Source: Anadara kagoshimensis
Lineage: Eukaryota; Mollusca; Bivalvia; Arcoida; Arcidae
Length of the DNA: 64,000 bases
Assembly: GCA_021292105.1 (NCBI GenBank)
Contig: CM037861.1
Span: forward strand, 50,866,920 to 50,930,919
Reading direction: 5' to 3'
The notes below the pieces were generated by a model. It worked only from the letters and a program-made list of their open reading frames with translations. It was not told the origin of the DNA and did no database searches. Positions 1-59,816 of this stretch are shown here, one piece after another. The stretch's first letter is position 1; every line of letters begins with the position of its first letter. The position numbers and the translations under genes were made by a program.

Positions 1-95
1 AATTTTGGTTTCATAATTTTGGTCCAAGCACTACTGATGAGGAATTTTATTCCGAACACGGCCGTCTAGTGCTGTAAAAATTAAAACTGGTATAA
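1..95 (+). repeat. Hammerhead-bearing repeat, copy 1 (cut by window edge)
   Basis: This is the right end of the ~230-bp family described at 6325-6555. Hammerhead-like positions are 27-73: stem I arm AGCACTA 27-33, CTGATGA 34-40, stem II 41-53 and the return arm TAGTGCT 67-73. The conserved GAAAC reads GAACAC, so self-cleavage is unlikely. Confidence 0.8.
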
Positions 96-214
96 TATGT
101 AATTAAGTAGTTTAAGTAACATGTGATGCACGTGTCTGAATGAAAGTTCTAATTTGCATAGGTAGATTGACAGGTGCATTACACAGTGTAGTAGAAATAA
201 TAAATTAATAAATA

Positions 215-1904: not shown

Positions 1905-2130
1905 TTGAAAACTATACTATTTTCCAAATTTCCCGCTAGATAAAATCAATAACTAAGGTATACTCCCTACTACAAACTATTTCTAAGCTAAATTTGGTTC
2001 AATATATTTTGGTCCTTTGGATATTATTTCAACATCTTGAACAACTTTTAGTTTCAAGCACTACTGATGAGGAATTGTATTCCGAAACGTCCGTCCAGTG
2101 TTGTAAAAATACAACTGGTATAATATGTTA
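1905..2130 (+). repeat. Hammerhead-bearing repeat, copy 2
   Basis: Full-length family member lying inside the Tc1-like relic of duplication unit A. Its ribozyme is at 2057-2102. Confidence 0.85.
2057..2102 (+). ncRNA. Hammerhead ribozyme (type I, minimal), core kept
   Basis: Parts seen: stem I arm AGCACTA 2057-2063, CTGATGA 2064-2070, stem II GGAA/TTCC with a 5-nt loop 2071-2083, GAAAC 2084-2088, tetraloop GTCC, cleavage triplet GTC 2093-2095, return arm CAGTGTT 2096-2102. Stem III is two base pairs, as in ribozymes reported from Penelope-like elements and retrozymes. Stem I has one mismatch next to the core and one G-U pair, which may weaken activity. Confidence 0.75.
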
Positions 2131-2708
2131 TCATTAAAAAATACTAAACATTCACTCAATACACCAATGTCATTAACAACGTGTTTGGTAGTTTTGTCTT
2201 TTCAGTGTTCCTGTCACCTTTTTTAACATTTCTGACCCGTACTATGTTATAACTCCCGAACTAAACTTGAGTTCTTTTATTTTGGTCTGTATAAGTTTTT
2301 GTATTTTTTGTGTAATTATGGCGGGGAATGTTTTTCTAAGACTATTTGTTAGATTAACAATGATTCTTATGGAATAGAACCTCTTTCTATAATGTCACCT
2401 TTTTTTAAATGAGCCCTTGCCTACTGTAGTCTTTTCTGTTTGTTTATTGTCACGGGTGTTTTCACTTATCTTTAGTGCAAATTTCTTCTAATTGTCTCTC
2501 TTTCAACCCTTCTTCCAACTCTATCTGTTTTACTAACTAGGTCAGTGTTTGTTACATATCCTTTTTTTATTATTACTCTTCTTATAACCTGTATTTCTGT
2601 CAACATCCTTGGAGGTCTTGCTCCTGTTTCTCTGTCATTTGATAGGGTTTCCCAGGTTTTCTGCATGGGACCTCTGCAAACTTCCGCATTTAAATGTTTC
2701 ATTAGTGT

Positions 2709-2866
2709 TGAATCACACTAAAGCAAATTAAAAACATTGAAACTGACAAGTTAGGTTAGACACGTGAACTTCCACCAGGGAAGTGAGGCCGGGTGCTCCG
2801 GAAGGGTAAGCACCTCCTATTTAGCAAGCTACACCCGCCACGTGTGTAATATAAATTGAGCAAAAA
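2709..2866 (-). mobile_element. PLE 3' tail, antisense, in duplication unit A
   Basis: Matches the complement of the non-coding 3' end of the PLE at 18985-19190. The terminal GTTTGTTTTTGATTA end is missing. It forms the right edge of the duplicated unit. Confidence 0.85.
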
Positions 2867-3659
2867 AATTCCCCGGCTTTGGACGGACACGGGTGTAAAT
2901 GTCCAGCAATGTGGTTATAGTACGTATTATAAGAGGACCTCAACTATTCAAAGTTACATAAAGCCAGTATTTTTAAAAAAAAAGTTTTATGGTCGTCATC
3001 GCAGTATTTGTTTATCGCTATGAATTGCCTCATCTTTCAAATTTTTTAAGTACAACGGTTTTTGTAAAACAGTTTTGTCTATTATTTTTTAATTGGTAAA
3101 CTTGTGTTATTGATAAGGGGCAATTTGTTAACCCGAACGAAGCTTTCAATAACTTGTTTTAATTTTGCAGAATTTTTTGTTCAAATTTTTAAACATATGC
3201 ATGTATTTTATGTCTAAAATGTTTGTGGACAAATTACAGGAAAGGAATTGGTATAGTAAGGTGCTCAAGACGCTTGTACGCGTTGTTTGTTTTGCTTTAC
3301 GTGATAATGGAATCTACAGAATTTTAAACACCATATCTAGACAAAACAATGGTTGATTACTTCAAAGTTTTATTAAATAAATGTTAACTTTAAAATCAGT
3401 AGGACTAGTATTTCGTCTGTCCACCTTTGTTCTGAAACATTTCCTTGATGGTTGCAGGCATGCTTTCATAAATACTTTCTGTCCATACTACCATTCAAAT
3501 CGTACTGATTTCCAATGTCTTGGCTCGTTTATAGTGCATCAACATATGAACATATACTTTCCCACCGATATAATCTAGGCGACATATCATAGTTAAGTAG
3601 CTTTACCTGTTTGTTTTACCTGTCATAGTTGAAATAGACTTATGACACTGATCATTATT

Positions 3660-3885
3660 TTGTTGAACACTATACTATTTTCCAAATTTCCCGCTAGTTA
3701 AAATCAATAACTAAGGTATACTCCCTACTACAAACTATTTCTAAGCTAAATTTGGTTCAATATATTTTGGTCCTTTGGATATTATTTCAACATCTTGAAC
3801 AACTTTTAGTTTCAAGCACTACTGATGAGGAATTGTATTCCGAAACGTCCGTCCAGTGTTGTAAAATTAAAACTGGTATAAAATG
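3660..3885 (+). repeat. Hammerhead-bearing repeat, copy 3
   Basis: Duplicate of copy 2, carried by the tandem duplication. Its ribozyme is at 3815-3860. Confidence 0.85.
3815..3860 (+). ncRNA. Hammerhead ribozyme, core kept (duplicate)
   Basis: Same parts as 2057-2102: AGCACTA 3815-3821, CTGATGA 3822-3828, GAAAC 3842-3846, GTC 3851-3853, return arm 3854-3860. The distance from the copy 2 cleavage site is about 1,758 nt. Confidence 0.75.
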
Positions 3886-4468
3886 TAATCATTAAAAATA
3901 CTAAAGAAACATTCACTCAATACACCAATGTCATTAACAACGTGTTTGGTAGTTTTGTCTTTTCAGTGTTCCTGTCACCTTTTGTAATATTTCTGACCCG
4001 TACGGTGTTATAACTCCCGAACTAAACTTGAGCTCTTTTATTTTGGTCTGTATAAGTTTTTGTATTTTTTTGTGTAATTATGGCGGGGAATGTTTTTCTA
4101 AGACTATTTGTTAGATTAACAATGATTCTTATGAAATAGAACCTCTTTCTATAATGTCACCTTTTTTTAAATGAGCCCTTGCCTACTGTAGTCTTTTCTT
4201 TTTGTTTATTGTCACGGGTGTTTTCACTTATCTTTAGTGCAAATTTCTTCTAATTGTCTCTCTTTCAACCCTTCTACCAACTCTATCTGTTTTACTAACT
4301 AGGTCAGTGTTTGTTACATATCCTTTTTTATTATTACTCTTCTTATAACCTGTATTTCTGTCAACATCCTTGGACGTCTTGCCCCTGTTTCTCTGTCATT
4401 TGATAGAGTTTCCCAGGTTTTCTGCATGGGACCTCTGCAAACTTCCGCATTTAAATGTTTCATTAGTG

Positions 4469-4652
4469 TCGAATCACACTAAAGCAAATTAAAAACTTTG
4501 AAACTGACAAGTTAGGTTAGACACGTGAACTTCCACCAGGGAAGTGAGGCCGGGTGCTCCGGAAGGGTAAGCACCTCCTATTTAGCCAGCTACACCCGTC
4601 ACGTGTGTAATATAAATTGAGCAAAAGGAACATAGAACTATGGGAAAATGTA
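4469..4652 (-). mobile_element. PLE 3' tail, antisense, in duplication unit B
   Basis: As 2709-2866 but running about 25 bp further into the PLE end (up to the GAACTATGGG phrase), which suggests unit B keeps the original right-hand junction. Confidence 0.85.
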
Positions 4653-5213: not shown

Positions 5214-6180
5214 TGTCCATATTCGAATTACAATCCCTAAAAAGCAAAACGGAAAAAACTTTGAAAACTGGCAAACCAAATAAAATACGTGGACTTCAAC
5301 CAGGGAGGTGAGTCCAGGCGCCCAGGAAGGGAAGTAATCCTGTCTAGTAGCTACATCCGTCCCGTCTGAAATCGAAATTGGAAATAAAATAACTAAACCA
5401 ATAGGACGTGAAATATGTGGATTTCAACCAGGGAGGTGAGTCCAGGTGCCCAGGAAGGGACAGTACTCCTGTCTAGTAGCTACATCCGTCACGTCTGAAA
5501 TCGAAATTGGGAATAAAATAACTAAACCAATAGGACGTGAAATATGTGGACTTTAACCAGGGAGGTGAGTCCAGGTGCCCAGGAAGGGACAGTGCTCCTG
5601 TCTAGTAGCTACATCCGTCCCGTCTGAAATCGAAATTGGGAATAAAATAACTAAACCAATAGGACGTGAAATATGTGGACTTTAACCAGGGAGGTGAGTC
5701 CAGGTGCCCAGGAAGGGACAGTGCTCCTGTCTAGTAGCTACATCTGCAACGTCTGAAATTGAAATTGGGAATAAAATAACTAAACCAATAGGACGTGAAA
5801 TATGTGGACTTTAACCAGGGAGGTGAGTCCAGGTGCCCAGGAAGGGACAGTGCTCCTGTCTAGTAGCTACATCCGTCACGTCTGAAATCGAAATTGGGAA
5901 TAAAATAACTAAACCAATAGGACGTGAAATATGTGGACTTCAACCAGGGAGGTGAGTCCAGGTGCCCAGGAAGGGACAGTACTCCTGTCTAGTAGCTACA
6001 TCCGTCACGTCTGAAATCGAAATTGGGAATAAAATAACTGAACCAATAGGACGTGAAATACATGGACTTCAACCAGGGAGGTGAGTCCAGGTGCCCAGGA
6101 AGGGACAGTGCTCCTGTCTAGTAGCTACATCTGCAACGTCTGAAATCGAAATTGGGAATAAAATAACATGAAGCAATAGG
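5214..6180 (-). repeat. 129-bp satellite (7 units) grown from a PLE tail
   Basis: A normal antisense PLE tail starts at 5214. From 5286 its core (CCAGGGAGGTGAG and following) repeats seven times. The phrase GGGAGGTGAG starts at 5303, 5431, 5560, 5689, 5818, 5947 and 6076, so the period is 128-129 bp. Each unit corresponds to the PLE 3' non-coding region plus a spacer reading AAATAACTAAACCAATAGGA. Units are about 95% alike, so the array is young relative to the dispersed tails. Confidence 0.9.
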
Positions 6181-6324
6181 ACGTTTGATATATATATCAA
6201 AAACTTTGAATACTTATCAAAATATTGCGAGGAGTGGAGTGGTGAGTGCATTTATGTTTAAAATGATAATGGATACATGTGCAATTCAAATGATAAGGTA
6301 CTATTCAGATTAATAGATAAAATG

Positions 6325-6555
6325 TATAATTTGCATTTCCTACCAGTTTTAATTTAACAGCACTAGACAGCCGTTTCGGAATACAATTCCTCATCAGTAG
6401 TGCTTGGACCAAAAATGTGAAACAAAATTGTTTTTAAAGATGTTGAAAAGATGCCCAAAGGACCAAAATGTATTTAACTAAATTTAGCAAAGGAAATACT
6501 TTGCATGAGGGAGTATACCACAGTTTGGAGCAATTTAAGATTTAGCCAATAGTAT
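6325..6555 (-). repeat. Hammerhead-bearing repeat, copy 4 (best copy)
   Basis: Read on the minus strand, the family runs: AT-rich start, CCTCATGCAAAGTATTTCC-like block, GGTCCTTTGG block, TTTTGGTCCAAGCAC, ribozyme, then a tail ACTGGTATAATATGTAAT-like. There is no ORF. About 14 copies occur in the window, in both orientations. The compact non-coding body with one ribozyme per unit resembles animal retrozymes or the terminal repeats of Penelope-like elements. Confidence 0.85.
6359..6404 (-). ncRNA. Hammerhead ribozyme (type I, minimal), all core positions kept
   Basis: On the minus strand: stem I arm AGCACTA (6404-6398), CTGATGA (6397-6391), stem II GGAA-TTGTA-TTCC (6390-6378), GAAAC (6377-6373), loop GGCT, GTC (6368-6366), return arm TAGTGCT (6365-6359). 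Stem I is a perfect 7-bp helix and every conserved core base is present. Cleavage would follow the C at 6366. The two-base-pair stem III is known to work poorly in monomers and better in dimers, so activity in this genomic context is uncertain. Confidence 0.85.
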
Positions 6556-6624
6556 AATAGAAAATAAGTTAAAGTAATAGCAGTAACATTGTTACAGTAA
6601 CAGGTAGATTTACAAAGGAAGATG

Positions 6625-15354: not shown

Positions 15355-15550
15355 TTAGTTATTTTCAATATACAATTGTCTAAATTTGCTGCTGGTTAAA
15401 ATCTTAAATTCCTCAAAAAACTAAAGTATAATCCCTCATGCAAAGTATTTCATTTGCTAAAATTTATTTTAGTCCTTTAGGTATCTTTTCAACATCTTGA
15501 ACAAATTTGTTTCACAATTTTGGTCCAAGCACTACTGATGAGGAATTGTT
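15355..15550 (+). repeat. Hammerhead-bearing repeat, copy 5, cut inside the ribozyme
   Basis: The body is well kept. The ribozyme starts at AGCACTA 15528, CTGATGA follows, and the match ends within stem II (~15550). 15551-15700 then holds AATAAA signals and unrelated sequence. Confidence 0.8.
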
Positions 15551-16080
15551 GTACGTGCAACTGTTATGTTTTATTGTGTGAAATAAAGATTCATCGACTC
15601 TATTAGATTTATTTAGTAGCTGCAGTTATGTGTATTACGTGCCATCCAGGTTAACAGTGAAGCTGTTGCGAAATAAAAATATTCTGTGAACAATTTTCGT
15701 GTTTATGGTTTTTGATATTAAAACTGTAGCAAAAATATTATTAACTTCTTTGGAATTTTGAAATAGAACATAGATTCGTTACTGAAAATACGTAGTTGGA
15801 AAAAAACCAAAGAACACAAAGAATACGGAACAATACGAGCTAAAGAAACAACCAAGACAGGAAAAAAAACGAACACCGTTTTTATTACTATAGAATTCTC
15901 TAATTTACACGGACACGAAATATGCAAATGGAGTGAAACCGGTCCATAGTGGGCCTTCAACCACACCATTTATTTCCCTAACGGTAGGCCATAAATTTAC
16001 ACATTGAAAATTAGTTATGAGCCTTTCAATATTAAACATATGAACAAACAACCTCTACATGTATATGATTTACAAAACAA

Positions 16081-16864: not shown

Positions 16865-17246
16865 AACAACAAAAATGATTAAGGGTTAGACGTCAAAATT
16901 ACGAATACTTCCAAAGTTCTTGTACGCAATTCAAAGTGAAAATTCTTCCTACAGTTCATGTTTGGGGAAGTATGTCATATATTTGATAGGTGAAATAAAG
17001 AGGGTTACTGACACCTTAAATAGTGCACGCTACCAAATAAATTTAAAAAAAACGTTTTACATATTTTGTATGAATGTTTAGTTTCCCTAGAAAAACAATC
17101 TATCTTTCAGCAAACATTGCTCCTGCTCATGCATCGGAATCGACTTAACAGTTTCTTGAAGCAATGAACATTTTTATCATTGACTGGTGCGGAATTCTCT
17201 TGATACGAGGCTAATTGAAAATTTGTGGGACTTCCTTATTGCAGTG
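16865..17246 (+). pseudogene. Tc1/mariner-like transposase, left part, cut by the PLE
   Basis: Decayed plus-strand reading with Tc1 landmarks in order: VHVWGSMSY (family: V-M-V-W-G), an FQQ..AP/AH region near 17108-17140, and LIENLWDFL near 17210-17240 (family: D-L-N-P-I-E-N-L-W-D). It stops where PLE sequence begins, and the transposase C terminus resumes at about 19200. I infer that the PLE inserted into the transposon. Confidence 0.65.
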
Positions 17247-19190
17247 TTTTAACCTTCATAATTTTACTCCACCTACCTGCTCTTGTTCGTCTTCTTCCTA
17301 TATTTATGGACCGGCTGAACATGTAATAACTGGTGATCTCAATATAATCGAGAACACCAAATTAAGATCTTTACTTTCAAAAGGTCCTAAATATAGAGAA
17401 GCTCAACCTTTTACTTGGGGACATAATTTCAGACTTGTCATGGATTCCGTTGAAGAGTACGCCAGACGTTGGGCTAAATTAGAAGTTGTTGAGCTTGATA
17501 CCTTATCCGACTGAATAAAGGTTGTGAGATCTTTCGTTAAAACTAGGATTGCCAAACTTAAAGGGTCTATGAGTACTAAACCGTCTTCAGTACTCAAAGA
17601 TCCAGAAATCAAGGCAATTCTAACAGACATACACAACAAATATGTTGTTGTTCCAGCTGATAAGGCTTCCAACAACATTATTCTCGTTTGTAAGAGATTC
17701 TACCTTGAATGTCTTATTAAGGAGCTTGGTTTAGATAGTATATCAAATAACCCTGCATATACTAGAACTAATTTTACCAAAGATGAAGTTCTTTCCAACC
17801 ATAGGGGAGTTCTCGAGTCTTTCGGTATCAATCTTAAAGAGGAAGATCTTGATCTTCCTTACTTGTATTGGATTCCTAAACTCCATAAAAATCCATACAA
17901 GGAAAGATATATAGCAGGCTCATCTAAATGTACTACTAAATCATTATCGGTAACTCTAACACAAATTTTGACAATCGTCAAAGATGGTCTTCAGTCTTAT
18001 TCAGAAAAAGTATATTCTACATCTGGAATCAACCAAATGTGGATTCTCAAAAATTCTAAAGAATTACTTGAACATCTTGCTTCTAATACTTTATCTCATG
18101 TAAAAAGTATAAAAACATTTGATTTTTCTACACTTTACACCACAATCCCTCATTCTAAATTGAAAGAACGTCTTAAAGAAATTATTCACTTCTCTTTCTT
18201 CTACAAAAACGGTAAGCCAAGATACAAATATATGGTGCTGAACAGGGATTCTGGTTATTTTGTCAAGCACCATACGGATTCCAAACAAAAATATACTGAA
18301 GATACCATCAACAAAATGTTGGAGGTTTTGATAGATAACATATTTGTTGTGTTTGGTAATATAGTTTTTCAGCAAACAATCGGTATACAAATGGGTACAA
18401 ACTGTGCAACATTGCTTGCTGATTTGTTTCTTTATTCTTACGAAGCAGAATTTATGCAGAACCTTATTAAATCTGGAGAGAAAACTCTCGCCAAATCATT
18501 CAACTCAGCATACAGATATATAGATGACGTTCTGTCTCTTAACAATCCTAAACTTGGAGACTATGTAAATGTCATCTATCCTAGTGAGCTTGAAATAAAA
18601 AGACACGACTGATTCCTCAAGTTCTGCTTCATAATTAGACTTATACTTATAGAATTATGACGCACAGGAAAGGCTACATTTGAAACTTTATGACAAACGT
18701 GATGACTTCAATTTTTCTATTGTCAATTTTCCTTTTTTATGCAGCAATATACCTGCTTATGGTGTATTTGTTTCCCAACTAATACGCTATGGTAGAGCTT
18801 GTTCCCACTACGGGGACTTTGTACAACGAAGTAGGCTGCTTGCAAATAAATTGTTGACTCAGGGATATTGCAAGCCTAGGCTTATCAAAGCCCTCAAAAA
18901 GTTTTATGGCCGTCATCACAGTATTGTTGATAAGTCTGATGTCTCTGTGTCCAGGATTGCCTTGGATATATTTGACGTCTCATAGTTCCATGTTCCTTTC
19001 ACACAATTTTGATTACACACGTGGCGGGTATAGCTAGCTAAACAGGGGGTGCTTACCCTTCCGGAGCACCCGACCTCACTTCCCTGGTGGAAGTTCACGT
19101 GTCTAACCTAACTTGTCAGTTCCAAAGTTTTTACTTTGCTTCTGGATTGTGATTCGGAAATGGATTAGTATGTTTGTTTTTGATTATAAA
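17247..19190 (+). mobile_element. Penelope-like retroelement (PLE), longest copy, 5'-truncated
   Basis: PLEs encode a telomerase-related reverse transcriptase. Visible in order are PTCSCSSSSYIYGP near 17270; the pre-RT region with PADKASNN (17653-17676); the finger motif YWIPKLHKNPYKERYIAGSS (about 17866-17925); motif A FDFSTLYTTIP (18118-18150); motif B GTNCATLLADLFLYSYE (from 18392); motif C YIDD (18517-18528); and the C terminus from 18680 ending FYGRHHSIVDKSDVSVSRIA. The 3' non-coding region runs 18986-19190 and ends GTTTGTTTTTGATTA. No GIY-YIG endonuclease is seen; the 5' end is missing, so an N-terminal one cannot be excluded (the Naiad branch has it there). The reading frame is broken, with about two or three interruptions. 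This copy defines the tail seen about 40 times in the window. Confidence 0.9.
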
Positions 19191-19510: not shown

Positions 19511-19974
19511 TATTTTTGACACTGAGAGGAGCATAAAAATGACTTGCAAAAACAAGTTCAACTTTACATTTCAGAAAACTTCTAGACTGTTATCCAAAGG
19601 AATCCATTATCACAAAATGACATTTGATATTTTTAAATACATTGTACTTTAAAATTCTGCTAAACCATTCGGTGTTGTTACTTTTCCTCCCATTTCATCA
19701 ATTGGGGTGGATGATGCCAGGGTTGGGTCCCTCGGTTCACCATACTTACAAGCAGGGCACCACATCCCTAATTTGTAAGATTAGAAATTGAATTTCATTA
19801 ATTCACAAATTTGTCTGTTCAACTTCAAAAGTTATATAAATGTGTACTATAATTAATTTGGCTTGGCTTTTCCTTTTAATTTTGGAGGGGAAATAACTGT
19901 GGAAAAAAGTGGCTCAACTAGCTTTAGATATGATGGTATATGCTCTATCTCTATTCTTAGTTACAACTATATAA

Positions 19975-20225
19975 AAATACTATTGTCTACATTTGCTGCA
20001 AGTTGAAATATGATGATTATCAAAAACTAAGATACACTCATTCATGCAAAGTATTTCACTAACTAAATTTGGTTAAATAAATTTTGGTCTTTTGGACACT
20101 TTTTTAACCCTTTGAAAAAAAGTGTGGTTTCACAATTTTGGTCCAAGCAAACTGATAAGAAATTGTATTACGAAACAACCGTCTAGTGCTATAAAATTAA
20201 CACTGGTATAATATGTAATAACAAT
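19975..20225 (+). repeat. Hammerhead-bearing repeat, copy 6
   Basis: The body is recognisable. The ribozyme at 20145-20190 keeps GAAAC and the return arm TAGTGCT, but CTGATGA reads CTGATAA and stem I's first arm is damaged. Confidence 0.8.
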
Positions 20226-22619: not shown

Positions 22620-22860
22620 TGTTATATGTTACATGTTATACCAGTACTAGAGAACCGTTTGTGAATACAATTCCTCGTCTGTAGTGTTTGGACCAAAATT
22701 GTGAAAATCAAAATCTATTTCCAGATTTGAAAAGATACCCAAAATGACAAACTATATCTTACCAAACTTGGCCAAGGAAATAATATGCATGAGGGAGTAT
22801 ACCTTAGTTTTAAAGGAATTTAATATTTTAACTAGCAGCAAATTGTCTGTAACTTTCGGT
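22620..22860 (-). repeat. Hammerhead-bearing repeat, copy 7
   Basis: Ribozyme remains at 22642-22689 (minus). Both stem I arms and the core are altered; the body CATGAGGGAGTATACC is clear. Confidence 0.78.
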
Positions 22861-23920: not shown

Positions 23921-25014
23921 TATATCTTAGTCCTTATTACGTTCGTTGCTTTGGCTATTGCGTAGTTCATTTTTTCAACAGCAAATATCTAAAGTTTATT
24001 GTGAAGCGACTAACAAAAATCAGTGATTTGTCTGTATTCCCTGGTAACAGGATTACTATGGTCACGAATATGTTGGATACTAAAGTGTTTTGCCTTCTCT
24101 TGATACGGGATTTCTTATCAGTAATAACTCCCAAAGGCTTTGATAATATTCTCTGAATCCAATACCCTAGATGCATTAAAGCTCTATATGTAAATAATTA
24201 TAAAACTGGAACTTGGTAGTATTGATTTTTGATTAAAACATTGGAATAACATTTAAATTGACACGCAATACTATAATAAAACTGAAGCAATATCGGTGTG
24301 TATGCTAGCACGAATTTTGACGGACAAATACGACCAAACGCATTGTACAATTACTCTGCTGATCATCATAGTCCTAGAGATCATTAGCTAAAATCAGGGT
24401 GACTGAGGCCAAAATAAATGAAGGTTGATTCCTGTTGGATAATTGTTTAGTTATATGTTTTAATAACACAGACGACTGTTTTGGCACTCCATTCATTAGA
24501 AACAGAGGTTAAAAAAAGTCGACCAGACGTTTGAAGATTAAAAATCACATCACAATAGAGTTCAGAATAAATGGAAAATATAAGCGAAAGTAGACAGAAA
24601 TGTTGTACATCAGATTGATTAAGGGAATAATTTGTGTCTGTGGTGATTTTTATTGACGGTTAAGTGCACATGTACGTCCGTAAATATGGTCGGACCCACA
24701 AGATTTATTACTTACTAGGCATAATTTTGTACCACATTTTAAGTTGTATATCCACAATAATACCAACACACTTATAAAAACATTTTTATTTATGTTGTAT
24801 TTTTGGGTTTTACAGTTTTGCCACAAATCATGATAAAATAATTTCCGATGGGGTAGATAATATTGATTTTTTCAATCATTTTTCCGTATTTCAGATTTCA
24901 CCATTTTTCAAAATTTCAGATGATTAATTATATGCTGACAATATTTATATAACATTAGTATCAATAATACAAACCCGTCTTCTGGCTGATTAGAATGAAA
25001 AGTCATTAAATTAC
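23921..25014. other. No element recognised
   Basis: AT-rich intronic sequence; the minus ORF at 23967-24176 has no recognisable domain. Confidence 0.4.
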
Positions 25015-25250
25015 ATAATATACGGTTTTAATTTTATAGCAATAGACGACCGTATCGGAATACAATTCCTCTTCAGAAGTGCTTGGACCAAAATTGTGAA
25101 ACAAATTTTTTTCAAAAAGTTGAAAAGATACCCAAAGAACCAAAAGAAATTTACCAAATTTATCTTAAGAAATTACTTTGCATGAAGGAGTATACTTTAG
25201 GTTTTTTGGAATTTCATATTTTAACTAGCAGCAAATTTGGACAAATGTAT
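25015..25250 (-). repeat. Hammerhead-bearing repeat, copy 8
   Basis: Ribozyme remains at 25038-25083 (minus). CTGATGA reads CTGAAGA and GAAAC reads GATAC. The plus ORF 25083-25292 merely reads through the body. Confidence 0.8.
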
Positions 25251-26974
25251 ATTTCTGACAATATGCACATTAATTGTCCATTGAGTTTGTGATATCATCG
25301 GGGAAACATCCAACAGCAGAACAAACAGCTTTAAAAAGCCTCTGCATTTAGAATAAGAAGTTTCTGAAAATGTTGGATGAATAGAACCAAGTTAATGACT
25401 TAAAAGGTTGAGATGTCCAGTATGAATGGGGAGCTCATCAGACTTCCACATTGTCAATGCACAAGTAAAACGTAAAATAGTTTAATGATTTGTTCATGGA
25501 CTAATGTATATGTTTGTGTTTCATTAAATAATCTACTAAAAGAATGCAAAATACCTCCTCAAAATTTATCTTACCTTATTTATTCATTATATTCACATTT
25601 TCAAAAAAATCCATAAAATGGAATTGATTTTATCGGCATTATTTGGTGTTTTACGGTGCTTTTATTGTAAGCATAACACACGTATTACATAATAGACAGA
25701 AAGGTAAAGGTTATATAAATGAAGAGTATCATCTTGTACTTGAGAACCTGAGACTACTGATGTTCCCAGACAGATGTGTCTACATCTAATATGATTCTAA
25801 ACGGTCGTGAGTGTCATATCTATTATTCAGAATCCTTTATAACCAAGTTTAGTGCTAGAAAGCTTTGTTGATGGTTTATTCTCATGGAGTCTGTTAAATG
25901 AATGCGTTGGCCTTGATTCCTTCAGTTTTGTCTCCTTGAATGTTTTGACTATCGCCAATTTGCATGTCATTTAGTTATAAAAATCTTACATTTTGAAAAT
26001 AAATTAAAAGTTTTTGTTTTACTCTGTCAAGTTACGGTCAGTTTCCAATTACCAACACCTTCGTCTTGAATACAGAGAATCATAAGCAAAGTTGCTCGTG
26101 TTCGCATTGTCGCTTTTTTGTTTAAGGCAAAGCGGGAGCAGAAATCGAACCATAGATCTATCCACAGCATTTGCAGCTTGGTGACTCTAAAAATAACGAC
26201 ATGTTAAAACAATCATACATTTTAAAAAGACAATCAAGTTTAAGTTTTATTGATATAAGTTGATATGATGTTCCCAGTTGCTTCACCCCCGCAAACAAAG
26301 TTTGGGAGTACATAGGGATCAGCCTGGATTCTGGCCGTCCAAATATCACTCCATATTACCCATGTCTATCAAACTTGACACAAATGTACACATACATGAG
26401 GCAATGTATCGCATACCAAATTCAGTGTCAGTCTAACCGTTGGATCAGGGGGAAACTGTTCAAGTTTACCTAGGTAATATTGGAAACCAAAACTATATGT
26501 GACTAATTACTCTACTTTTATTAAGTAGTTAATTTATTGTTTGGTTTTTTAATTTAATTTCCCAGCAAAAAAGGAATTGACTTATTTTTGTAAAGTTAAA
26601 GGCAATTTTGTTTGAAAAATCAATTATGCTTACATATTATGTAATTAATCATGTGCTTTTTATCAGAATTCAGAGGCACACATGAAATCTATTTTGTCAT
26701 TATAGTCATCAGAAATATTAAGACGGAAAATGCTTTATGAATCTTCAAAGATATGTTTTCCATTAAACACAGTAATGAAGTTGTATATCCCTTGGTACCA
26801 AAGTTTTACATTGAAGCTTGTGTAGTCGATCAATATATTGTCAACTTGTTCAAGTATATTTTGTGTACTCTGGAAAGTCAAATACATTATACTGATGGTG
26901 ACATGGCGTTTTCAGTAGCACTGGGACGTAAAACCCCATTTAACCCAGTTATTCCATAACTATATACCAGGGGA
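25251..26974. other. No element recognised
   Basis: Intronic AT-rich sequence. ORFs at 26158-26349 (minus) and 26753-26959 (plus) show no known domain. Confidence 0.4.
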
Positions 26975-28504: not shown

Positions 28505-28735
28505 CTTTATAATTACATATTATACCAGTTTCAATTTTACAGCACTAGACGGCCGTTTCGGGATACAATCCTCATCAGTAGTGCTTGGACCAAAATTATG
28601 AAACCAAAATTATTTTGAAGATGTTGAAAAGCTACCCAAAGGACCAAAATATATTTTACCAAATTAAGCTAAGGAAATACTTTGCATGAGGGAGTATACC
28701 TTAGTGTTTGAGAAATTTCAACTTTGAAATAGTTA
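28505..28735 (-). repeat. Hammerhead-bearing repeat, copy 9
   Basis: Well-kept body and ribozyme; see 28541-28585. Confidence 0.85.
28541..28585 (-). ncRNA. Hammerhead ribozyme, core kept
   Basis: Minus strand: AGCACTA (28585-28579), CTGATGA (28578-28572), a shortened stem II, GAAAC (28559-28555), loop GGCC, GTC (28550-28548), TAGTGCT (28547-28541). Stem I and the catalytic core are perfect. Stem II is one base shorter on one side than in the 6359-6404 copy. Confidence 0.8.
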
Positions 28736-31160: not shown

Positions 31161-32269
31161 GGTGTCAAAAATGAGATATAATTTAATAATATAAATATAA
31201 GTAGATATGTAGGGATAATTCACAAACGGTGGCGTGTTTGTATTTTTGTTATTTGTCCTGACAAAAGTGTCAAATAGAAAGATATGCTACTTTTGACTGT
31301 TTATCAGATAAATATATACCAAAATAACACATCAAAAAAGTGTTTTTGTATTCGTATTTATTTAATAAAACATAGATACACAAGGTGCACATAAAAATAA
31401 GTAATAATTTGAAAATATTGTTTACCCTTTGAAATTATTACAAAATACCTAGAATTTGTAAGTTTATAGTAAAACCATGATGTATGTGAAACCATGATAT
31501 TTCCTTTTGTATGATTTTGTCTTTGATAACTGTTTTTAATCTAAATTAGTTATTTCGCAGTATTTACAAACGTTTGATGTTACTTGATATTAGACGGTAT
31601 TAATTCCTAGATAGGAATATCGTGATTCAAGATGTACACTAAACACAGGAAATTAAAATGTTCTTCTTATTTTATTGTAATTACCTTGCGATTGAAATAT
31701 GATTTTATTAATGCTTGATTGTACAAACGTATTAAAGTTTTGTATTGGCAAACAACATTGACCTACCCGTTTGACCTCTCATTAGGTATATTCAGGTATA
31801 TTCATATACTGCATAAGAATAAATATTATCGGTAGGAAATTTTCGCGGTTTCATCCATCTAAATTATTTTACGGTTAGAAATGTTCAGTTCCGACTGTAG
31901 GAAAACCAAGGGAAAAAATTCGCGGAGAAGATATATTCACGGTACAAGTGTCACCATGTAATTCGCTAATATTTCTTCTTCGCGAATGTTTCTTCTTATA
32001 CATTAAGTAGAATCATCCACCCAATATACATGCGTAGTGTTAGTATTCACAATAAATTATAATGTATACTCAATACATATGGTTATTGTTCTCAGTATGC
32101 AGATGGTCCATGTGCATAAATGTACTCATAAATAATATATTAATTAAAGGTCAAGCGGACAGGTTAACGTTGTTTGCCTATATAAGTTATTGTCTAGTAT
32201 AAGCCACGAAAACACTGCGTATAGGATATCACAAACTCAGTTGGCAATAATTGTGTATTATTGTCAGAA
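31161..32269. other. No gene seen
   Basis: AT-rich. 31830-32010 holds several TTCGCG phrases, perhaps an old repeat I cannot name. Confidence 0.4.
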
Positions 32270-32520
32270 AAATACCATTGTCGAAATTTGCTGCTAGTAT
32301 AAAAATTGAAATTTCTTCAAAAACTAAGGTATACTCCCTCATGCAAAGTGTTCCCTTAGCTAAATTTGTTAAACTACATCTTGGTCCTTTTGTAATCTTT
32401 TTAGCATCTTAAAAAAAGTTTTGGTTTCATAATTTTGTTCTAAGCACTATTGATGAGGAATTGTATTCTTAATGACCGCCCAGTGCTGCAATAGTGAAAA
32501 AGGTATAATATGTAATAAAC
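32270..32520 (+). repeat. Hammerhead-bearing repeat, copy 10
   Basis: Full body; ribozyme remains at 32442-32487 with a damaged GAAAC region. Confidence 0.8.
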
Positions 32521-32559
32521 TTAATCGTTCAAAGTATTGTCTTAAATGTGAAATACCTT

Positions 32560-32700
32560 TTGACCCTTCTATTTTTCACATTTTTACATCTTTTTCAAAT
32601 TTTTGAATTTTTTACAATTTTGGTCTGAGCACTAATAATGATGAATTTTATTCCGAAAAGCCCGTTTATTACTGCAAAATTAAAACAAGTGAAGTAATAA
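32560..32700 (+). repeat. Hammerhead-bearing repeat, copy 11 (right half)
   Basis: Ribozyme remains at 32628-32675, same orientation as copy 10 and ~186 bp from it. The core is altered (TAATGATGA, GAAAAG). Confidence 0.72.
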
Positions 32701-38849: not shown

Positions 38850-39175
38850 AGTTTTTATCACAAATTATTGTACGTTACTGATAGAGAGTTGTACAATATT
38901 AATATAGCTAAAAGTTGTAGGTGGATAACCTCTTTATTCTTTTGATGACAAACTATACTAATATCTTACGTTCCTGTAAAAAACTGTACTATATTAATAT
39001 CTAAAAGTTGTAGGCAGAGAATCACTTTATACTTTTGATCACAAACTGTACTAATACCTTACCTTGCTTGGAGAGATCATCACTCTTTATGTGACAGATT
39101 CTCATATTTGTACGTCTAGATACTAAAATTATTACTCTTTATAATTTTGATCACAAACTGAACCAATATCTAACA
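38850..39175. repeat. Degenerate ~110-bp tandem repeat
   Basis: Units share ATCACAAACTGTACTAATA and AAAAGTTGTAGG phrases. A further scrap lies near 39330-39370, after the hammerhead repeat at 39170. Confidence 0.65.
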
Positions 39176-39320
39176 GGTATATTTTGGTCGTTTAAGTATC
39201 TTTTTAAGATCTTGAAAAAAAATTTGTTTAACAAATTTGGACCCAGCACTACTGGTGAGGAATTGTATTCCGAAATGGCCGTCTAGTGTTGTAAAATCAA
39301 AGCTGGTATAATATGCAATT
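39170..39320 (+). repeat. Hammerhead-bearing repeat, copy 12
   Basis: Ribozyme at 39245-39290: stem I, stem II and GTC kept, but CTGATGA reads CTGGTGA and GAAAC reads GAAAT. It sits inside the degenerate array. Confidence 0.8.
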
Positions 39321-39764: not shown

Positions 39765-39915
39765 TTGTTTCAATTACATAGTTTACCAGTCTAAATTTCA
39801 ATGCACTAGACGGTCGTTTCGGAATACAATTTCTCATAAGTAGTGCATGGACCAAACTTATGAAACCGAAACGTTTTCCAATGTGTTGAAAAGAAATCAA
39901 AGGACCAAAATGCAC
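39765..39915 (-). repeat. Hammerhead-bearing repeat, copy 13, abutting a PLE fragment
   Basis: Ribozyme at 39802-39847 (minus): GAAAC, GTC and both stem I arms kept, CTGATGA reads CTTATGA. The body stops abruptly at ~39915, where sense PLE sequence starts. Confidence 0.8.
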
Positions 39916-40264
39916 AGTAGTGTTTATTCTCACTACAGGAACTTTATACCACGAAGCAAGCTGCTAAGAAATAATATTGACGCAAGGATATTGGAAGCAT
40001 AGGCTTATCAGAGCTCTCACATGTTTATATGGCCGTCATCATGTTGATATGTATGATGTCTCTGTATCCATAATTACCTCATATTTGACATCCTACAGTC
40101 AAATGTTCCTTTCACTCCCAATTTTGATTACACGCATGGCTAGCCTCAAAGAGTTGTTACCTATCCTTCTGGATCACTTCCTTGGTGGAAAGTTCTTATT
40201 GTAATTTGCCATTTTCAAAGTGTGACTTTGGTTTGGACATGGATAGGTATGTTTGTTTTTGATA
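39916..40264 (+). mobile_element. PLE fragment, sense, ~350 bp
   Basis: It starts in the CSHYGDF region and includes a C-terminal block reading LIRALTCLYGRHH, then the decayed tail and terminus TGTTTGTTTTTGATA. The ORF at 39977-40204 is this fragment. Confidence 0.87.
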
Positions 40265-41699: not shown

Positions 41700-42295
41700 T
41701 ATAATTGAAAACAAATCTACCAATCCATGTCCAAATCACAACCCCAAAACAAAGAAAACAAACCTGCTAATTCTTGTCCAAATCACAACCTCAAAACAAA
41801 GAAAACAAACCTACCAATCCATGTCCAAATCACAACCCCAAAACAAAGTAAAAACAAACCTACCAATCCATGTCCAAATAACAACCCCAAACCAAATTAA
41901 AAACAAACCTACCAATCCCTGCCCAAACCACAATCCAAAAACAAAGTCAAAACAAACCTACCAATCCCTGCCCAAACCACAATCCCAAAACAAAGTAAAA
42001 ACAAACCTACCAATCCATGTCCAAATCACAACCCCAAAACAAAGTAAAAACAAACCTACCAATCCATGTCCAAATAACAACCCCAAACCAAATTAAAAAC
42101 AAACCTACCAATCCCTGCCCAAACCACAATCCCAAAACAAAGTAAAAACAAACCTACCAATCCCTGCCCAAACCACAATCCCAAAACAAAGTAAAAACAA
42201 ACCTACCAATCCCTGCCCAAACCACAATCCCAAAACAAAGTAAAAACAAACCTACCAATCCCTGCCCAAACCACAATCCCAAAACCAATTAAAAA
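41700..42295 (-). repeat. 49-bp satellite (about 12 units) grown from the PLE terminus
   Basis: The unit is the complement of the last ~49 bp of the PLE (AAAACAAACCTACCAATCC and CCAAATCACAACCCCAAAAC). CAATCC starts at 41864, 41913, 41962, 42011, 42060, 42109, 42158, 42207 and 42256, a 49-bp period. A larger two-unit pattern is visible: the ATGTCC and CTGCCC variants alternate in blocks. The ORF at 41821-42096 is a reading of the array. Confidence 0.92.
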
Positions 42296-42400
42296 CTACA
42301 AAAAAGAGGCAAATTAAGTAAACACTTGAACTTCCACCAGGGACGTAAGACCGTGTGCTCCGGAAGGGTAAACATCTCCTGTTTACTAGTTACATCCGTC
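42296..42400 (-). mobile_element. PLE 3' tail continuing from the 49-bp array
   Basis: After the array the normal tail resumes (ACTTCCACCAGGGACGTAAG, GCTCCGGAAGGGTAAAC), showing that the array is an internal expansion of one PLE end. Confidence 0.87.
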
Positions 42401-44972: not shown

Positions 44973-46264
44973 ACTCAAATCGATAGACAGTCGTACGGTG
45001 CCAATGTGTTTCATTCCATAGATAAATAAAAGATTATTTTACATTGGTTAAGTTTGAAACAGACTATTTGACTTCCATATGTCATTTGTACATAACCATT
45101 AACCAACTTAATAGTTTTCTGAACTTGCGCAAGGACATATTATTGGCTGGACCTAAATGACTTGGAGCTCTGTTGAATGTGACAGATTGGCCGACTAACC
45201 TTCTTACTAGTCAATTGTATGAATAGTATTTAATGATTGGCTGCTTGGAGGTTCTGATTTATGTAACAGACTATCTGATTGGCCACTGCGGTATTGGTAA
45301 CAATTATCAATCACAATATTATATTGTCTGTTGTGAGATTTATTTGTATCGTTCCAGAAAATTAAATAAGAATCACAATGATTTAGTTATTCTGGCACAA
45401 CACACTGTGTGACTTACTGCTAGCGCAATAAACATTCTACTAAATAAAATTACATCTAGTGTAAACTTAATAGAGATATTTTTATTTATTCAGTAGATGT
45501 CTTTCAATGATTTGACCAATTTTTTTCAATATATCGTTAAAGAAGGGATGTATTGTAGAAGTATGTAATGCCTGTCTACTCGCAGGAAATGTCTCCGCAA
45601 GGCATTTAAATCACGGCTTGCAATGAGGCCAAAATTAGAAAGCTAGTTTGATATAGTGTCTAAAATAAGCTGTGTAATCAGCGCAATCATTAAGATATTC
45701 TATTTTTGTAGCAGTTTCGTTGTAGGAGTATTCCTGACCTGAAGGTTATTACGCAAATACTGCCCATAAAAGAACCGACCTACGCAATCATCGGATCTAG
45801 CGATCAATAAAGTAACATTATAATGGAGTCTCGCTTTAAATGCTAGCAGAGGCAGTGGAAAGTCTTCACAGGTTTTTATACACAAATTGGATTCCTTATA
45901 TAGATTCCAGTATTTAAACTGAAATATTACATAAAAATTTGCTGTTTGGTGCGAAAATATTTTTCTCTTGAAACAGTTTATCTCTAATTGCTTTCATTTG
46001 TCTGGTTTAATAAATCTTAATGCGCAGATTAATTTTTTAAGTCACTAGAGAAAGGGCTTGATTTATTTCAAAGAATAAATGAAGACAGGGAATCCAGTTA
46101 GAGCATAGATTATGTAACCCGCATTTTACGATGAATGGACAACAGTTTACATTAACTGAAAAACTACAACCTATATATTTGATCTGCATCTATCAGACAT
46201 GACGTAATGCACGTATGTCCCTATTTTAGGCCATTAGAAAATGGCATGCTTTTTTGTTTAAAAT
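44973..46264. other. No element recognised
   Basis: AT-rich intronic sequence; the minus ORF at 45700-45885 has no known domain. Confidence 0.4.
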
Positions 46265-46400
46265 GGTCATAAATACATTTTGGTCCATCTATTTCTTAAA
46301 AAAATTAAATTTTCACATTTTTGGTCCGAGCACTACTGATGAGCAATTTTATTACAAAACGACCTCTTGTGCTGCAAAAGTATAAACAGTTTTAGCATTA
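46265..46400 (+). repeat. Hammerhead-bearing repeat, copy 14
   Basis: Ribozyme remains at 46329-46373: CTGATGA kept, stem II broken and GAAAC changed to AAAAC. The oldest-looking copy. Confidence 0.75.
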
Positions 46401-59687: not shown

Positions 59688-59816
59688 AAGTATATACAAT
59701 TAACCATTGAACTGTCTAGAAATTGCTTTAACTTCTATTCCCGTGCAAAGCAAACTGAATAAACTGGCACTACAGACGCCATTTCTAGACAGTTCAATGG
59801 TTAATTGTATATACTT
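59688..59816. mobile_element. 129-bp element with perfect 36-bp inverted repeats
   Basis: Left arm 59688-59723 (AAGTATATACAATTAACC...) and right arm 59781-59816 are exact complements, separated by a 57-nt non-complementary loop. Perfect pairing in an otherwise decayed intron points to a recent insertion or a constrained hairpin. No ORF belongs to it. Confidence 0.85.

Follow-up and report, generated by a model that had tools for sequence, protein, structure and literature searches.

The 64-kb window (the whole stretch of Anadara kagoshimensis DNA that we analysed, 64,000 nucleotides) contains 14 copies of one repeat family, retrieved by nhmmer with the copy at 6300-6600 as query (E 6.8e-82 to 2.1e-9), together with 34 stretches (11.2 kb) derived from a Penelope-like element (PLE). 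A preliminary description made from the sequence alone had proposed a dispersed hammerhead-type repeat in about 14 copies, and all 14 places that it named proved to belong to this single family. They represent at most 13 independent insertions, since the copies at 2057 and 3815 share a tandem duplication of ~1.76 kb. This duplication (window ~1911-4645) carries in each of its copies one repeat and one PLE fragment, with 98% identity over a 300-bp stretch. The copies of the repeat, classified below as a retrozyme, and a copy of the PLE are the following:

1..104, plus strand: retrozyme copy at the window edge, continuing upstream in locus L064; 95% identity with a natural unit over 218 nt
1911..2138, plus strand: retrozyme copy; core intact, stem III loop GTCC, first stem I pair lost
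3669..3896, plus strand: retrozyme copy, duplicate of 1911..2138 in the ~1.76-kb tandem duplication
6324..6543, minus strand: retrozyme copy at the centre of this study; 5'-truncated monomer, from unit position 201 round to 82, with the fixed 3' end at ~6324
6359..6404, minus strand: type I hammerhead within the preceding copy, sequence-predicted; stem I 6398-6404/6359-6365, CTGATGA 6391-6397, then stem II, GAAA and a 2-bp stem III with a GGCT loop; the predicted cleavage site falls between 6366 and 6365
15367..15555, plus strand: retrozyme copy; similarity ends within the hammerhead
17238..19186, plus strand: 5'-truncated copy of a permuted-domain PLE, with the RT in two frames and the 3' UTR; median identity of ~97% to 29 other loci
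19973..20219, plus strand: retrozyme copy; core decayed
22622..22844, minus strand: retrozyme copy; core decayed
25006..25337, minus strand: older retrozyme copy, almost full length; decayed module at 25278-25337
28506..28728, minus strand: young retrozyme copy with 94% identity to a natural unit; the core is intact and stem II shifted
32223..32516, plus strand: retrozyme copy; core decayed
32513..32698, plus strand: retrozyme copy adjoining the preceding one; decayed
39153..39320, plus strand: retrozyme copy; core altered (CTGGTGA, GAAAT)
39767..39938, minus strand: retrozyme copy; core decayed
46241..46398, plus strand: retrozyme copy; decayed

All copies in the window are shorter than one unit, the best preserved being that at 28506-28728 and the one at the window edge. 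The core CTGATGA..GAAAC..GTC is exact in four of the 14 (pattern search: 2064-2095 and 3822-3853 on the plus strand, 6366-6397 and 28548-28578 on the minus strand), against 0.01 expected, and the other ten are without it. A strict descriptor, consisting of the core plus stem I of at least 5 bp, stem II of at least 4 bp and stem III of at least 2 bp, was matched among the window copies only by 6359-6404 on the minus strand and in none of 200 shuffles of the window. The hammerhead at 28541-28585 (minus strand) had been rated nearly as good; its core is indeed exact, but the rating was generous because its stem II is shifted (GGAT/ATCC plus an extra C, by eye).

A genome search with the window copy as query gave 4,618 candidates, of which 40 were scored (51 matches) and the best 30 were taken as loci. 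In the tandem copies among these best 30 loci, the unit measured 337-340 bp and contained one predicted hammerhead, and a single array (L023) had six cores; the repeat occurs both dispersed and in tandem. The body of ~230 bp given in the preliminary description was that of a 5'-truncated copy. Its non-coding character held: the longest ATG frame in a natural retrozyme dimer (L003) has 30 aa, and a repeat with no longer frame in the dimer does not encode the RT with GIY-YIG that distinguishes a PLE. The unit is also AT-rich (GC 0.344, in one locus, L003). A type I hammerhead core (here sequence-predicted), a tandem unit of 150-450 bp, absence of coding capacity and low GC are the hallmarks of retrozymes and are all present. 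On these characters, the repeat is very probably an animal non-LTR retrozyme, representing a new family of a known kind. According to the accessible text of PMC7229834, on which we rely for this source throughout, the Mytilus galloprovincialis family likewise has one type I hammerhead in each small, AT-rich, non-coding unit, animal non-LTR retrozymes share the dispersed and tandem arrangement and the thousands of copies, and the mussel hammerhead is equally without most loop-loop contacts. The mussel units, compared by their description, are somewhat different in length (~350-390 bp versus 337-340 bp here). The fixed insertion end and the module shared with a PLE that we report below are not described for animal retrozymes in that text.

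The predicted hammerhead is minimal, with a 7-bp stem I without internal loop, a 5-bp stem II with a 3-nt loop and a 2-bp stem III. Its exact core occurs 8,160 times genome-wide (one match for the reversed control) and is present in 42 of 76 distinct copies of the hammerhead region (window plus the first 64 loci). The stem III loop of these 42 copies is GGCC in 35, GGCT in four, GTCC in two and GGGC in one; most therefore carry the self-complementary ACGGCCGU in stem III. Two strands are predicted to pair through ACGGCCGU, with a cofolding energy of -36.7 kcal/mol, and a single strand alone reaches -13.4 kcal/mol in a non-hammerhead fold and -8.9 kcal/mol in the hammerhead fold. These modelled energies suggest that the hammerhead probably acts as a dimer via a stem III formed by ACGGCCGU, in line with the axolotl hammerheads of PMC7229834. 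The newt and axolotl hammerhead satellites described there also have a very short stem III with a self-complementary loop and work best as dimers; they differ from the present repeat in their unit, and in that the present stem I lacks an internal loop with which loop 1-2 contacts could form. Four older retrozyme copies (L073, L077, L082 and L083) have GACC as stem III loop and the young majority the self-complementary GGCC, as if dimer pairing had recently improved.

Two checks had been proposed for the hammerhead. The Rfam model RF00163 (Hammerhead_1) gave no match above its gathering score in the window, a result that is uninformative because intact tandem copies were missed as well and no control genome gave any match. 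The expectation that the core would be more conserved than its flanks was weakly borne out over the 76 copies (core columns 0.931, outside 0.911).

To describe the insertions, we removed four loci that duplicate others (L006, L007, L011 and L020) from the 30 and dropped stretches shorter than 150 nt (e.g., 111 nt in L004), which left 27 insertions, 26 of them scorable as one runs off its locus. In all 26 the 3' end lies at unit 76-82; as cleavage is predicted after unit 40, the distance to the cleavage site is 36-42 nt in the 3' direction. The 27 5' ends vary widely, between unit 5 and unit 204. As best matches to a 301-bp query, these loci are biased in their lengths and 5' ends; such sampling by similarity does not explain the fixed 3' end. 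Ten of the 26 insertions are longer than one unit. None has its 3' end at the predicted cleavage site and, from their coordinates, all 26 span it, so that the template was either circular or not cleaved. In L018 the 5' end falls at unit 40, next to the cleavage site, as would be expected of run-off on cleaved RNA; this single case may be due to chance. Read-through junctions across the insertion end number 2,551 genome-wide (up to two mismatches), with none for the reversed control. By eye, no poly-A or microsatellite tail was apparent at the insertion ends shown. Neither was there a TSD signal among the 26 insertions: the longest terminal match averaged 3.6 versus 3.2 for mismatched flanks, and matches of at least 6 nt were found in three of 26 insertions versus 3.9% for mismatched flanks; TSDs of animal non-LTR retrozymes, when present, are reported to exceed 4 bp. 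Such an anatomy is consistent with reverse transcription that starts at a fixed point on RNA that is circular or consists of uncleaved multimers.

The RT that moves the retrozyme may come from the family of the PLE copy at 17238..19186. The first look at this family gave 19,898 candidates, 112 of which were scored; the best 30, taken as loci, had median identities of 96.8-98.9%. Its natural open frame of 991 aa contains a GIY-YIG domain at 127-216 (22.5 bits, E 1.5e-4, below the Pfam cut-off of 22.6), N-terminal to the RT (RVT_1, 738-841; 23 bits, E 7.3e-5, below the Pfam cut-off of 29.6). We take this to be the permuted order of the Chlamys/Naiad PLEs, which share the N-terminal GIY-YIG before the RT; the retrozyme, in contrast, encodes nothing. 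A PDB search with a piece of the PLE RT gave no meaningful match (best E 0.022). GTATGTTTGTTTT is present in all 30 PLE copies, followed by TGAT (28-30 of 30 copies at each position) and then by divergence. The exact hammerhead core was absent from the 30 PLE loci and three upstream stretches, and the repeat is therefore not a piece of the PLE. The five matches of a looser core over 45 PLE-related loci all lack GAAAC and are positioned outside the PLE span; together with the lack of an exact core, this ruled out a hammerhead belonging to the dominant PLE. Within the window, 28 of the 34 PLE stretches reach within ~40 nt of the PLE 3' end. Two tandem arrays derive from such 3' ends, one of seven 129-bp units (5216-6193), directly beside the retrozyme at 6324-6543, and the other of twelve 49-bp units (41708-42296).

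The first match between the retrozyme and the PLE 5' end was weak (E 0.001-0.005; 1e-5 in a smaller comparison). It was examined where PLE copies lie head to tail. In L065 and L067 the PLE 5' start follows directly after a PLE 3' end, and the PLE tandem junction aligned with the L023 retrozyme unit without gaps, with 40 of 54 positions identical; counted from the insertion end, the alignment runs from +7 to +61 in either element. The alignment scores 26, a value that none of 5,000 shuffles reached (mean 9.7, maximum 18), and the insertion end is separated from TCTCTGCT by 18 nt in retrozyme and PLE alike. The young permuted-domain PLE has this 54-nt module at its 5' end; in the retrozyme it lies beyond the insertion end. 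The module comprises three helices, P1 (8-12/56-60), P2 (15-20/45-50) and P3 (30-32/37-39), which consensus folding recovers without their being named and in which 98% of cells are paired, against 31.1-50.5% in slid versions. At the pairs 11-57, 16-49 and 32-37 both partners differ between retrozyme and PLE, and all seven stem changes between the PLE and the majority retrozyme retain pairing; as the PLE rows are near-identical, this is one deep comparison with three compensatory events, not nine. No shuffle out of 500 equalled the paired percentage, the covariation score or the count of doubly changed cells. Three pairs with both partners changed were, in contrast, reached by 82 shuffles, and as many pair types by 446. 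Folded as single sequences, the PLE (z -3.0), older retrozyme (z -2.0) and young retrozyme (z -1.6) modules adopted the same shape, with weak thermodynamic support for the young retrozyme module alone; a fourth, non-hammerhead piece, an unplanned control, had z 0.04.

Genome-wide, the module pattern had 3,643 matches with up to two mismatches, and its reversed control none. A second pattern, designed so as not to match C at position 32 or A at 33, had 87. The 13 places examined among these comprised one PLE mini-array (L084), one module-only array (L072) and 11 older retrozymes, four of which (L075, L076, L079 and L080) start in or near the module. The 18-nt spacing is kept in six of the seven older retrozymes that reach past the insertion end, having been lost by a deletion in L082, and is also found in a further older copy, L069. 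Most older copies have A32 and T37 like the PLE, a likeness that the second pattern itself favoured; L077 and L081 have no standard pair at 32-37, and several have G16, forming with T49 a G.U pair between the G-C of the PLE and the A-U of young copies. A covariance model of the module produced 47 matches in 69 sources (E up to 5), falling in retrozymes or PLE ends; of the 11 unclear ones, ten adjoin retrozymes and one a PLE end. The matches include the older copy at 25006..25337 (minus strand; 25278-25337, 27.4 bits), the only window copy in which the model found the module, and a chance-level one in L029 (E 2.3). Viral contigs had no relatives of the module pattern or of the PLE RT. The register of the module to the insertion end is common to both elements, and we infer that the module is an RNA recognized by the RT. 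We found no report of a module shared by retrozyme and PLE in the literature searched, most subscription papers lying outside its reach.

The PLE head-to-tail junction occurs 183 times in the genome (up to two mismatches), and 72 of the 100 junction places listed fall in eight clusters, commonly 103-126 bp apart. Eight arrays of this kind (L070, C2:10909 kb; L071, C1:40869 kb; L084, C5:20183 kb; L086, C4:1357 kb; L087, C4:52466 kb; L088, C5:59583 kb; L089, C10:19777 kb; L090, C11:2871 kb) consist of tandem units of ~103-126 bp that contain only the PLE 3' end and the 5' module and whose breakpoints differ from array to array. Only the first 20 nt were imposed by the search pattern, and in the units examined the PLE 3' end runs into PLE 5' sequence that extends to between +60 and +79; deletions therefore stopped outside the module. 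The 3' part retained measures 39-54 nt in seven arrays and ~39 nt, by eye, in L089 (indel). These mini-units are apparently minimal PLE derivatives without hammerhead. Part of the C4 array is without +21 to +38 (L085), and a ~55-bp tandem array of the retrozyme module alone, with neither 3' end nor hammerhead (L072, C13:2562680-2563180), is without the 3' strand of P1, so that some arrays change or grow at the DNA level.

The match of the module in the same register suggests which enzyme copies the retrozyme. PLEs are a strong candidate partner of animal retrozymes according to PMC7229834, and a 2020 review (PMC7761336, as far as its accessible text goes) noted in metazoan retrozyme repeats no conserved motif from which an autonomous partner could be deduced. 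From the sequence comparisons, we consider it likely that the present retrozyme is mobilized by this PLE lineage through the module. Tandem copies would be transcribed, the hammerhead, probably dimeric via the self-complementary ACGGCCGU stem III, would cut the RNA into units, and a host ligase would close these into circles. The PLE protein would bind the three-helix RNA module and initiate on a nicked target at a fixed internal point, a few nt 5' of the module and 36-42 nt 3' of the cleavage site, reverse-transcribing anything from part of the circle to several rounds of it and leaving 5'-variable, 3'-fixed and often multimeric insertions. This whole account, in which a non-LTR retrozyme is copied by a PLE protein from a fixed point beside the module, seems hardly less likely than the partnership itself. 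If true, it would explain why these repeats occur as multimers with variable 5' ends, and also the retention of the hammerhead although none of the 26 insertions has its 3' end at the cleavage site. The earlier idea of a retrozyme-like passenger of the local PLE is thus strengthened by the shared 54-nt structured module and its equal register to the insertion end, while its unit length did not stand, and the ribozyme is not part of the PLE here (no exact core in 30 PLE loci and three upstream stretches).

The layout of the retrozyme (hammerhead, 36-42 nt, putative initiation point, module) is like that of the Poseidon element PAc, a PLE of Anolis (PMC11167929, as far as its accessible text goes), which in vitro initiates inside its RNA and not at the 3' end. 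As here, initiation is internal and 3' of the hammerhead, and the minimum RNA required extends 3' of the initiation point. PAc differs in being autonomous, with a C-terminal endonuclease and a hammerhead at the start of its ORF; in the present system it is the passenger that carries the hammerhead, none having been found in the PLE. The novelty lies in evidence on the enzyme that copies the retrozyme and on the point from which it starts; candidate partner, defined RNA module and defined start point all come from one genome.

Among other explanations, the one that fares best, itself unlikely, accepts the retrozyme and sees in the module a DNA promoter or host-factor binding site, with a different RT in charge of mobilization. 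The module does sit where a downstream promoter of the PLE 5' end could lie, but helices kept through paired changes point to RNA and not duplex DNA, and a promoter does not account for the equal distance from module to insertion end in both elements; many LINE-type partners, moreover, would leave the poly-A or microsatellite tail that we did not see by eye. It is quite improbable that the repeat is what 5' truncation left of another PLE family, namely its pLTR end with the hammerhead. Minimal hammerheads are indeed reported in PLE pLTRs (accessible text of PMC7229834 and PMC7761336), and the succession of hammerhead, initiation site and required RNA resembles that of PAc in the available part of PMC11167929. 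However, the tandem units are closed at 337-340 bp without a coding region (longest ATG frame, 30 aa), and the one PLE family surveyed, the dominant one, showed no exact core in its 30 loci. A satellite that spread as DNA, by unequal exchange or through DNA circles, and whose ribozyme is functionless could explain the tandem arrays and the DNA-level changes in some related mini-arrays; it is very hard to reconcile with insertions that in 26 of 26 cases share one 3' end while varying at the 5' end, many of them single and dispersed, and with 8,160 exact cores. Just as implausible is a coding relic, in which the retrozyme would descend from the PLE 5' reading frame, open through the module, and the similarity would be functionless, as by eye only ~2 of a dozen differing codons are silent, the retrozyme has a stop, and the seven stem changes from PLE to majority retrozyme all keep pairing.

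Extending the preferred reading, copying of the retrozyme by the PLE protein, beyond this genome, we lean, with less assurance, towards a general role of permuted-domain PLEs in mobilizing animal retrozymes via the three-helix module. The arrays would then result from rolling-circle target-primed reverse transcription, the minimal mobile unit would be the module plus ~40-55 nt of 3' end, and the hammerhead would be the retrozyme's own circle-maker.

Elsewhere in the window, positions 59699-59805 form a long near-perfect hairpin, with a weak match to mir-5984 on both strands (39 bits, cut-off 95), which is probably a small inverted-repeat element.
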